From an uncultured Tepidimonas sp. (GTDB lineage Bacteria > Pseudomonadota > Gammaproteobacteria > Burkholderiales > Burkholderiaceae_C), in the NCBI GenBank assembly GCA_937949455.1, contig CALEDU010000098.1, forward strand, positions 1 through 13,706: a stretch of 13,706 nucleotides of DNA, written 5' to 3'. Below are positions 7,490 through 9,925 of this stretch, piece after piece; the stretch's first letter is position 1; each line of letters begins with the position of its first letter. The notes beneath the pieces were generated by a model. The model was given only the letters and a program-made list of their open reading frames with translations, searched no databases and was not told where the DNA came from. Position numbers and translations under genes: made by a program.

Positions 7490-7540
7490 GGGCCGGATTG
7501 TCGCCGAGCGAGAGGGCGGGCACAGCACAAGGGGGCAGGT

Positions 7541-7915
7541 CCGGGATTTGCCACCGCGCTGTTCGGCGGCCTGCTGGTCAGCGCGGCTAGCGGCCGACTG
7601 GATACGCTGGTATTCTTTGCTGGACTGATCATCGGCACAGCCGCTTTCGCTGGCCTATACGGGCCAGCGATCGAGGCCCTGATGACGATGGCCGAGGTCG
7701 AATCCGGCGACACGCTGCACGACACCCTGGATATCCCGCCGTGGTGGATCATCGGCGCGATGGCCGTGGTGCTGGTCGGGGTGTACCCCCTCGGCCGCTG
7801 GTTCGAACAGCGCCATGGCGGGCTGATGGATGCGCGGGAGGCCGTGCCCGGTCAGGCCGGCTGCCGCGCGCAGGGCTGCAGTGGTGCGATGTCGTCCTCC
7901 CCCCTTCCACGTTAG
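7541..7915 (+). pseudogene. 3' remnant of a YeeE/YedE-family sulfur transporter
   Basis: From about 7541 to the TAG at 7913-7915 the frame encodes an integral-membrane C-terminus. A PG motif is followed by [19 protein letters not shown], a second hydrophobic stretch [19 protein letters not shown], and later PPWWIIGAMAVVLVGVYPL. The ASGRLD..FF..GL..G pattern followed by a late single helix resembles the C-terminal part of YeeE/YedE (thiosulfate or sulfur transport) proteins. No ATG, GTG or TTG in this frame lies between the pyrC start and the homology. The nearest, a GTG at 7481, is inside pyrC, and everything upstream in frame is antisense to pyrC. Full-length proteins are far longer, so the N-terminal part is missing. 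It could alternatively be a short expressed fragment, but no start supports that. The family assignment is from pattern memory and is moderately sure. Confidence 0.6.
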
Positions 7916-7936: not shown

Positions 7937-8188
7937 ATGAAAACTTGTCAGCAACCCCTCTCCCAAACCCTGACGGCACTGCTGGTGGCTACGAGTCTGG
8001 TGGCCCCTGCCGCGCTGGCGCAGCAGGCACCCAAATCCAACGGCAAGCCTGCCGCCAGCGCCGCCGGCAATCCTTGCGCCCCATCCAACCCATGTGCACC
8101 CGGCGGTACCAAGAAGAAAAAGAAGAAACGCGCCGAGGTGGATAACCCCTGCGCGCCAGACAACAACCCGTGCGCGCCAACGCGCTGA
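7937..8188 (+). CDS. Exported small Cys-repeat peptide with NPCAP motifs
   Basis: This 83-aa protein belongs to no family I can name. Residues 1-28 form a clear Sec signal peptide (hydrophobic TALLVATSLVAPAALA, cleavage after ALA). The mature 55 residues are low in complexity. Two NPCAP motifs (Cys47, Cys53), a lysine run of six plus Arg (59-65), then two more NPCAP motifs (Cys72, Cys79) ending at the C-terminus. The spacing is C-x5-C in the first pair and C-x6-C in the second. Four cysteines paired in this way suggest metal, heme or persulfide binding, or two disulfides; this is inference. The ribosome site is weak (TAGG). It follows the YeeE remnant by 21 nt and precedes the His-rich gene by 21 nt, with a rhodanese next, so a sulfur- or metal-related periplasmic role is plausible. 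Confidence 0.78.
   Translation: MKTCQQPLSQTLTALLVATSLVAPAALAQQAPKSNGKPAASAAGNPCAPSNPCAPGGTKKKKKKRAEVDNPCAPDNNPCAPTR
8069..8179 (+). repeat. Four NPCAP-coding repeats
   Basis: The codons for Asn-Pro-Cys-Ala-Pro recur four times, at residues 45-49, 51-55, 70-74 and 77-81 of the small exported peptide. The pairs are split by a lysine-rich linker. Synonymous codons differ between copies (AAT CCT, AAC CCA, AAC CCC, AAC CCG), so the repeat is kept at the protein level and is not a recent DNA duplication. Confidence 0.75.
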
Positions 8189-8209
8189 TGGCACACCAAA
8201 TTCCTGTCC

Positions 8210-8905
8210 ATGGCCGTTGTGCCCGAATACGCACCGGACGCTCGACGCACCCTGCACCCCGACGTCGCGGCAACCGAAACGGTGGATCTGGCCAGTTGGG
8301 CCGAGACGGCGTTGCGCGTACCGCTGGACTATGCCCTACGGGGAATGTCGTTGGCGCAGGTAGCGCTGGCCGGCGCGCGCCATTTCGAAGCGTTGCGTCA
8401 CTATCCGGCGCGCGACGTCGTCGATGCGACACACGGTACGCGCTTTTACTACCACGCGCACGGCGGCGCGCTGCGCTGGGGTAGCGACGCTGCGCCCGAG
8501 CATGGCCACTTCCATTTGTTCTGGGACGGCCCCGGGCCTGGCGCGCATCGGCACATGGCGGCGCTGGCGCTGGACGCACACGGCCAGCCGCTGCGCTGGT
8601 TCACCACCAACCGCTGGGTCACGGCAGGGCACTGGGCATCCGCGCAGGAACTGATCGCGCGCCTGCCCGCATTTCGTCTCGCCGCGCGCGGCGGGCGGCT
8701 GGCGCCACTGGCACGCTGGCTGACGGCCATGGTGCAGTTATTCGCCGACGAGCTCGCCGCGCTGCTGCGCGCGCGCGACGCGGCGCTGGAGCCACACCTG
8801 CGCCAGCGTCCAGCCGAGCTGGTGTGGGAAGACCGCACGCTGGAGGTGCTCAGTGTCGCCGACGCAACTCTGGCGCCGCGCCTGCGGCGGCTGGGCCTGG
8901 CTTGA
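8210..8905 (+). CDS. His-rich protein of unknown function (possibly DUF6969-like)
   Basis: This 231-aa soluble protein has no signal peptide or membrane segment. Its centre is rich in His and aromatic residues: FYYHAHGG (His82, His84), EHGHFHLFWDG (Glu97, His98, His100, His102), AHRHMAALALD (His113, His115) and FTTNRWVTAGHW (131-142). The spacing of His pairs resembles a metal-binding or cupin-like barrel, but no named enzyme motif is recognised. From memory it resembles the domain called DUF6969; I am not certain. The ATG at 8210 is the first start after the upstream gene's stop, which lies in the same frame 21 nt before. No Shine-Dalgarno is clear, so translational coupling to the NPCAP gene is likely. 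A rhodanese gene follows after 30 nt, making a three-gene operon probable. Confidence 0.82.
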   Translation: MAVVPEYAPDARRTLHPDVAATETVDLASWAETALRVPLDYALRGMSLAQVALAGARHFEALRHYPARDVVDATHGTRFYYHAHGGALRWGSDAAPEHGHFHLFWDGPGPGAHRHMAALALDAHGQPLRWFTTNRWVTAGHWASAQELIARLPAFRLAARGGRLAPLARWLTAMVQLFADELAALLRARDAALEPHLRQRPAELVWEDRTLEVLSVADATLAPRLRRLGLA

Positions 8906-8935
8906 TCGTTTTTTGCCCCAAGGAGAGACACAACG

Positions 8936-9925
8936 ATGAAAACCCTTCGGCGCATCGCCGTGGCACTGGGCGCGGCTGCACTCGCCGCCAGTGTCTGGGC
9001 CCAGGGTGTGCTGCCCGGCCCGGTGGTCAACACCCAGTGGCTGGCCGATAACTTGGACAAGGTCCAGGTGATCGAGATTCGCAACGATGCCAAGAGCTTT
9101 ACCCGCGAGCCGGCGTTCGAAACCAGCAAGGACGGCAAGAAGGTGCCGGATGAGTTTGGCGGCCATATCCCCGGCTCGCGCCTGTTTCTGGCCAAGGAAC
9201 TGCGCACCGAGAGAGAAATTGGCAGCAACAAGGTCAAGTACCTGCTGCCCGACCGCACTGCGTTCGAGAAGGTGGTGCAGGCGGTGGGGGTGCTCGCCGA
9301 CAAACCGATCGTGCTGGTGCCTGAGGGGCAGAAGATCTCTGACTTCAACGACGCGGCGCGGCTGCACATCCTGCTCAAGGCATACGCCGACACCCCAGTG
9401 GCGATGCTCGACGGTGGCATGGTGGCTTGGCTGTTAGAAGGCCGCCCGTGGAGCAAAGATGCCCCTGTGGCCATGCCGAGCACCTGGAAGGCCATTGCCG
9501 ACCGCTTTACCGACATGGTGGCCGACTCGCCGGACGTGGCCGCTGCGATGGAAAAAAAGGACGTGCAACTGGTCGACACCCGGGCCGCGCCGTTGTACTT
9601 GGGCATCCTCAAGCGTGACTATGTATACGCCTATGGCCACATCCCAGGCGCGCGCAACGTGCCGCTGGACACGTTGTACATCAGCCGCGGTGGCGCAATC
9701 CGGCTGCTCAAGCCCGACACCTACCGCGCGGTGTTTCGGTCGCTCGGCGTCGATCCGTCCAAGCCGCTTGTCACCTACTGCAACAGCGGCAACGACTCCT
9801 CGCTGCCGTGGTTCATTGCGCGCGAGATCTTGGGCAACACCCAGGCGCGCAACTTCGACGGCTCGCTGCACCAATGGACGCTGGAGAAGCGTGCCATGAA
9901 TGCGCCAGTGCCAGCGGCCATGTGA
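8936..9925 (+). CDS. Exported tandem-rhodanese sulfurtransferase
   Basis: This 329-aa protein transfers sulfane sulfur to a thiol or cyanide acceptor through a cysteine persulfide. Residues 1-22 form a signal peptide (cleavage after SVWA), so it acts in the periplasm. Two rhodanese domains follow, at about 30-170 and 195-325. Each has the usual HIPGS/HIPGAR turn (GGHIPGSRLF and YGHIPGARNVPLD). Only the second has an active-site cysteine (Cys282 in TYCNSGNDSS). The first domain carries EGQKISD in that position and looks structural. The start is supported by AAGGAG 10 nt upstream. The two-domain form with an active C-terminal half is typical of thiosulfate/mercaptopyruvate sulfurtransferases, but the physiological donor is not identifiable. 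It is the last gene of the plus-strand block and converges on gltL. Confidence 0.9.
   Translation: MKTLRRIAVALGAAALAASVWAQGVLPGPVVNTQWLADNLDKVQVIEIRNDAKSFTREPAFETSKDGKKVPDEFGGHIPGSRLFLAKELRTEREIGSNKVKYLLPDRTAFEKVVQAVGVLADKPIVLVPEGQKISDFNDAARLHILLKAYADTPVAMLDGGMVAWLLEGRPWSKDAPVAMPSTWKAIADRFTDMVADSPDVAAAMEKKDVQLVDTRAAPLYLGILKRDYVYAYGHIPGARNVPLDTLYISRGGAIRLLKPDTYRAVFRSLGVDPSKPLVTYCNSGNDSSLPWFIAREILGNTQARNFDGSLHQWTLEKRAMNAPVPAAM

Follow-up and report, generated by a model that had tools for sequence, protein, structure and literature searches.

The window, the whole stretch of 13,706 nucleotides analysed in the present study, comprises the full length of contig C98 from a MAG of 1.48 Mb that is 73% complete. 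The nearest named relatives belong to Tepidimonas, which is therefore the probable genus. The analysis is based throughout on sequence evidence, with signal peptides judged visually or with a crude rule, and with rough ORF calls in the survey genomes. The following features were observed.

7529..7915, plus strand: degenerate remnant of a half-size YeeE pair (comparison with loci L012-L020; Sulf_transp match below cut-off)
7937..8188, plus strand: putatively exported Cys-repeat (NPCAP) peptide, 83 aa (ORF; family alignment A2 of 24 peptides)
7937..8020, plus strand: Sec-type leader of the peptide, residues 1-28, ending in ALA (read by eye)
8069..8083, plus strand: NPCAP motif 1 (sequence)
8087..8101, plus strand: NPCAP motif 2 (sequence)
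8111..8128, plus strand: six consecutive Lys separating motifs 2 and 3 (sequence; kept in most of A2)
8144..8158, plus strand: NPCAP motif 3 (sequence)
8165..8179, plus strand: NPCAP motif 4 (sequence)
8210..8905, plus strand: DUF6969 protein, 231 aa (PF22308 match, alignment A1, AlphaFold model)
8936..9925, plus strand: putatively exported two-domain rhodanese (two PF00581 stretches, sulfurtransferase relatives in the PDB, Cys loop)

According to the ORF list and the sequence, the peptide, DUF6969 and rhodanese genes follow one another, separated by 21 and 30 nt, and an earlier note on this DNA had given their coordinates, order, strand and spacing correctly. In comparisons with three relatives, the dN/dS values were 0.13-0.15 for the peptide, 0.17-0.30 for DUF6969 and 0.12-0.16 for the rhodanese, and this range of 0.12-0.30 shows the signature of purifying selection on all three genes; the comparable part of the YeeE remnant gave 0.21-0.24. 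A comparison with PHROGs yielded no match, and the result of a promoter and terminator scan lay within the shuffled expectation.

By reading, a linker connects the Sec-type leader of the peptide to a first pair of NPCAP motifs, and a second pair follows after the six Lys residues; the four motifs and signal peptide described by the earlier note were thus seen again. No Pfam or NCBIfam family matched the peptide above cut-off, no cytochrome domain was observed in the Pfam scan, and Cys-repeat peptides of this kind are filed in databases as hypothetical or low-complexity proteins. A VAGGL-like leader was observed in 16 of 57 peptides compared with 0 of 296 other signal-like ORFs, which gives at most a hint of leader recognition because the motif was picked post hoc and most of the 16 peptides are related.

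The middle protein, previously described as His-rich, indeed contains 14 His in 231 residues and is a member of DUF6969 (PF22308; 173.9 bits against a cut-off of 27, E=4.1e-51). The alignment of 55 members (A1) revealed 16 invariant columns, five of which are His (H82, H84, H100, H102 and H115), with H64 and H98 almost invariant; the motifs YYHAH and EHGHFHLF, with invariant columns in A1, are present in the window protein. A signal peptide was absent by reading, the protein is read as probably cytoplasmic, and the His cluster might form a metal site. The AlphaFold model is well supported (pLDDT 89.9, pTM 0.85), and in a Foldseek search of the PDB with this model no match reached E<=0.001, the best having E=0.4 and none a probability above 0.13, although a faint fold relative may have escaped Foldseek; the best match in a profile search of the PDB had E=0.28. 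A relation to MNIO enzymes was undetectable by family scan and Foldseek. Membership in another known family was considered and rejected, as scans of five members to E=10 returned DUF6969 alone in three and a chance-level extra match in two. In the literature searched, comprising one library, nothing was found on DUF6969/PF22308 or on such Cys-repeat peptides.

The third gene encodes a predicted sulfurtransferase with the two PF00581 stretches and the Cys loop (CNSGNDSS; Cys at residue 282, 9779-9781) of a two-domain rhodanese, a signal-like N-terminus by reading, and relatives among the solved sulfurtransferases of the PDB, consistent with the exported two-domain rhodanese of the earlier note; the score against the NCBIfam 3-mercaptopyruvate sulfurtransferase model was 82 bits, below the cut-off of 250. 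Upstream of the peptide, where the end of a sulfur-transporter gene had been noted, the sequence is YeeE-like, but instead of the tail of an intact gene this is the remnant of a deleted hybrid: in-frame, startless and internally deleted, it runs from a piece resembling the first half-gene into the C-terminal portion of the second. The remnant lies between pyrC and the peptide, is approximately 1.7 kb shorter than its counterparts in L012-L020, scores 25.9 bits against Sulf_transp (cut-off 27), and lacks the GCTSG and GYCPG motifs of intact YeeE half-genes, reflecting either a real loss or a fault of MAG assembly. In related Tepidimonas, both half-size YeeE genes are complete between pyrC and the peptide, and the window genome contains two full-length YeeE genes at other places. 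In these relatives, the C-terminal half of Sulf_transp corresponds to the first half-size YeeE and its N-terminal half to the second (positions 176-308 in L012, protein P0239, and 3-150 in L014), and both halves were also found in L082.

Several findings concern the linkage of these genes. First, a set of 33 relatives (L012-L044) was collected by similarity to the window's gene, such that its clade is over-represented, and YeeE, peptide, DUF6969 and rhodanese occur in succession at 20/20 loci of L012-L031. At L027 (5662-5913), a frameshift in the Lys run splits the peptide gene, which may be a homopolymer sequencing error. Second, the PF22308 model was found in 20/398 genomes of a phylum survey and 25/399 genomes of a Burkholderiales survey, from which 40 loci with flanks were taken after excluding the entry of the window itself, loci that both surveys had returned and a fragment of 36 codons in genome G416. 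The total including the window is 74 DUF6969 loci, 73 of which are distinct (L079 repeats L039). By a mechanical rule, a signal-bearing Cys-repeat ORF lies within 2 kb of DUF6969 at 60/74 loci, and such ORFs numbered 68 in 286 kb of near flank compared with 4 in 526 kb of far flank, although among the near matches the second ORF of L014 and that of L116 look spurious (L116 nonetheless has a true peptide) and among the far matches those of L110 and L112 look real. Reading added peptides at L015, L019, L027, L085, L124, L125 and L126, giving 67/74 loci; for the survey loci alone, the counts were 31/40 by rule and 35/40 with reading. Among the loci positive by rule, not counting L079 and L116 (n=58), 51 have the peptide upstream of DUF6969 on the same strand within 250 nt. 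This recurrence in other genomes indicates that the gene linkage exceeds chance.

At the remaining seven loci (L032, L044, L066, L067, L073 at a contig edge, L076 and L108), no peptide was found within 2 kb. In the genomes of L073 and L108, Cys-repeat proteins are encoded on a different contig; the L066 genome gave one weak distant match, and none was found genome-wide for L067 and L076. Upstream of DUF6969 at L044 (match from 5908), a leader of the sphingomonad peptide family is retained with a mature part containing one Cys. Among plasmid loci, the peptide is present in Ciceribacter (L143), Burkholderia glumae (L145) and Skermanella (L146), and no Cys-repeat peptide was found near DUF6969 in Azospirillum (L142) and in two Sinorhizobium meliloti records (L141, L144).

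Third, the linkage was also observed from the side of the peptide. A profile of 24 NPCxP peptides (A2) matched 13/399 Burkholderiales genomes, and the ten matches with E<=1.2e-17 were all (10/10) directly upstream of DUF6969; among the three weak matches, the one in G416 shares its contig with a DUF6969 fragment, and G436 and G758 are without DUF6969. A profile of 11 NPCAAK-type peptides (A3) matched 16/300 genomes, of which 11 have DUF6969 and 5 do not (Fisher p=4e-10, assuming at most 25 DUF6969 genomes in the sample and ignoring kinship); four of these 11 genomes are also NPCxP genomes. In a large protein database, A3 had 832 matches at E<=1e-5, and other phyla occur among the 120 matches listed, suggesting that Cys-repeat proteins range more widely than DUF6969 has been shown to. 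The repeat texts vary with lineage (NPC[AG]P with a Lys run, NPCAAK, AACGA, GCCAA, KCAPK, PCVKTK and KCGAK), and the peptide type follows the DUF6969 tree, with 11 changes compared with a shuffled mean of 37.1 when L085 and L124-L126, whose peptides were read only afterwards, are scored as 'none'. In nine loci (L070, L072, L074, L075, L107, L109, L111, L112 and L123), one protein combines repeats of the NPCAAK or KCAPK type with a cytochrome c domain of the SoxA/TsdA type (PF21342, above cut-off), the fused gene of L112 lying more than 3 kb from DUF6969, and PF21342 was observed in 23 of the 120 A3 matches listed.

The genes around the pair differ between clades. The comparison of genome neighbourhoods, the check named in the earlier note, revealed conserved linkage to sulfur genes in the NPCxP clade, in which the rhodanese is present at 28/30 loci and YeeE within 2.5 kb at 29/30 (window remnant counted); at L120, which lacks the rhodanese, the contig ends just past DUF6969. 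Outside this clade (n=43), the rhodanese was observed at 1/43 loci (L085) and a near YeeE at 3/43 (L085, L109 and L111), and at L122 the peptide and DUF6969 stand together without the rhodanese, YeeE or other operon genes. The tie of the peptide to the rhodanese and transporter that the earlier note had drawn is thus not obligate. Because L122 lacks the sulfur genes and few loci outside the NPCxP clade have them, the peptide and DUF6969 constitute the core, and the half-size YeeE pair and rhodanese are the setting of one clade. We consider it very probable, from this recurrence, that DUF6969 and the exported Cys-repeat peptide belong together as a dedicated pair.

ArsR regulators were also observed near the pair. 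BigR and SqrR are persulfide-sensing ArsR repressors. An ArsR gene is present in the fetched flanks of 10/30 NPCxP loci, in seven cases on the same strand within 2 kb, and the ArsR protein of L118 has as its nearest PDB structures BigR (3pqj) and the 6o8l group, which we take to be SqrR, with both Cys aligned; by reading, two Cys are also kept in the ArsR proteins of L082, L083, L117 and L120.

Herein, we suggest the following mechanism for the pair. DUF6969 would remain in the cytoplasm, with a metal held by the conserved His cluster, and would act on the Cys-repeat precursor before Sec export through chemical modification or loading. The exported multithiol peptide would then serve as a periplasmic carrier or buffer for thiophilic species, either sulfane sulfur or metal. 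In the NPCxP clade, the cargo would be sulfane sulfur moving among a periplasmic pool, the exported rhodanese and an importer resembling YedE1E2/PmpAB, the importer being present in the relatives. The pairing of a cytoplasmic DUF6969 with exported peptides in unrelated settings fits a maturase, a loader or a chaperone, and for maturation or loading of the peptide by DUF6969 we regard the case as evenly balanced. Sulfane sulfur is favoured for the NPCxP clade because of the operon partners and the type of ArsR, and as the main cargo there it may be right or wrong in equal measure; the idea of the earlier note that the peptide is a persulfide carrier appears plausible. The mechanism is further favoured by the invariant His of DUF6969 and its lack of a signal peptide by reading, the peptide having one, and, for the sulfur setting, by the importer-like layout of the half-genes in relatives and the SoxA/TsdA fusions at nine other loci. 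The full mechanism is advanced tentatively, with slightly less assurance than either of these steps. Several observations count against it: the transporter of the window is broken and the other three genes are kept; no relative in fold or sequence lends DUF6969 an activity; DUF6969 occurs without a nearby peptide (7/74 loci and the Azospirillum and S. meliloti plasmids), and 5/16 Cys-repeat genomes are without DUF6969; and SoxY is not enriched in DUF6969 genomes. The last point also removes DUF6969 as a marker of Sox genomes, as SoxY was found in 17/25 DUF6969 genomes compared with 247/399 overall (p=0.67).

Some settings outside the NPCxP clade point to metals and count against the sulfur reading. 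At L080 (5160-9161), genes for DUF2282, BufB, DUF2063 and DoxX directly precede a KCGAK peptide and DUF6969, placing MNIO and DUF6969 in one cluster; merT is near the pair at L110, and arsenosugar genes at L075 and in B. glumae (L145, L153). On the B. glumae plasmids (L145 6553-7645, L153 2553-3645), the pair lies within an arsenosugar cluster with thioredoxin, CcdA and sigma-70-type genes. Thioredoxin and CcdA genes were further detected by tblastn at L108 (also by Pfam), L112 and L119, FGE-sulfatase genes at L068, L069 and L108 by Pfam and at L071 by tblastn, and ECF-type sigma genes by tblastn at L072, L073, L080 (also by Pfam), L111 and L124-L126. An exported VIELTQ-type protein, cupredoxin-like by reading, adjoins DUF6969 at L108 (2879-3379) and L111 (8205-8675), and the L108 protein had no Pfam match at E<=0.01. 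The chemistry common to the settings of the pair in all clades would be thiophilic, namely that of sulfane sulfur, copper, mercury and arsenic.

These settings raise an alternative, in which DUF6969 matures the peptide into a periplasmic chelator that resembles the bufferins and binds Cu, Hg or As, the sulfur genes of the NPCxP clade being merely co-located. The bufferin, merT and arsenosugar neighbours argue for such a metal buffer, as do the thioredoxin/CcdA and ECF sigma genes near some pairs, given that sigma-factor genes also occur in bufferin operons in the available part of PMC12452194. However, the near-constant presence of YeeE and the rhodanese at the NPCxP loci speaks against it, and neither Pfam scanning of the gene calls nor tblastn searches using bufferin and mer sequences identified copper or other metal genes in the window; we consider this alternative unlikely, if deserving of attention. 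A second alternative casts DUF6969 as a chaperone or a pilot for export, serving a Cys-rich chain that is reactive and disordered and works unmodified. This role would explain one constant partner despite widely varied repeat texts, suits a DUF6969 that is cytoplasmic by reading, and agrees with thioredoxin and CcdA keeping thiols reduced at some loci. The invariant His pattern, however, probably resembles a metal or catalytic site more than a binding groove, and a role without chemistry seems decidedly improbable. Co-transcription of peptide, DUF6969 and rhodanese as plain operon neighbours without a common process, although consistent with the shared strand and short gaps, is very hard to credit, since the peptide-DUF6969 pair recurs across settings and without the other genes.

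The present study offers a first testable role for PF22308, a family for which no publication was found in the literature searched, and groups peptides filed as hypothetical or low-complexity into a class that has DUF6969 as its usual partner. Should DUF6969 indeed modify or load Cys, it would represent a second route, besides the MNIO enzymes, to exported Cys-based carriers of sulfur or metal, and a periplasmic sulfane-sulfur shuttle linking the rhodanese and YedE-type importers might exist. In its broadest form, DUF6969 would be a new, MNIO-independent maturase family of unrecognised fold, modifying Cys repeats of Sec-exported peptides and of SoxA/TsdA-type cytochrome tails across Pseudomonadota to yield periplasmic polythiol carriers of sulfane sulfur, copper, mercury or arsenic; this generalisation is possible but on balance doubtful.

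Among known systems, the peptide-DUF6969 pair is most similar in layout to the MNIO-matured bufferins. In the available parts of PMC12452194 and PMC13097082, the MNIO-matured precursors (bufferins, oxazolins and captophorins) are Cys-rich, carry a Sec signal peptide and adjoin the gene of a cytoplasmic partner, and they often contain low-complexity repeats, with ECF, DoxX, FGE or mer genes sometimes nearby. The window peptide, with its leader and four Cys motifs by reading, likewise resembles a Sec-exported Cys-rich precursor. However, its motifs are of the NPC type instead of EGKCG, neither MNIO (PF05114) nor DUF2063 was found in the window by Pfam scan or by tblastn with the BufB of L080, and MNIO genes are near only 2/74 DUF6969 loci (L080 and L074). 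In SoxYZ and SoxA/TsdA, a periplasmic Cys is proposed to carry sulfur, and the nine fused loci join Cys repeats to a cytochrome c domain of the SoxA/TsdA type, whereas the window peptide has no SoxY or cytochrome domain and many Cys per chain. As with BigR and SqrR, ArsR genes with two Cys adjoin the cassette in some relatives and may, by analogy, sense persulfide, although no such gene was found in the window by tblastn.

The comparison with sulfur importers concerns the relatives of the window more than the window itself, which has a remnant instead of two half-genes. According to the available parts of the sources, YedE1E2, a half-size YeeE pair, has been shown to import zero-valent sulfur (PMC10812762), and PmpA/PmpB have the same half-gene layout with approximately 130 aa each (PMC11582611). 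The half-genes of the relatives differ in length (166-219 aa compared with approximately 130 aa in PMC11582611) and in having the peptide and DUF6969 alongside. Cys motifs, which may or may not correspond to the one essential Cys in each half of the importers, are present in the relatives and absent from the remnant. Nevertheless, like YedE1E2/PmpAB as described in those parts, the relatives possess two half-size YeeE proteins covering complementary halves of Sulf_transp, with a rhodanese gene adjoining.
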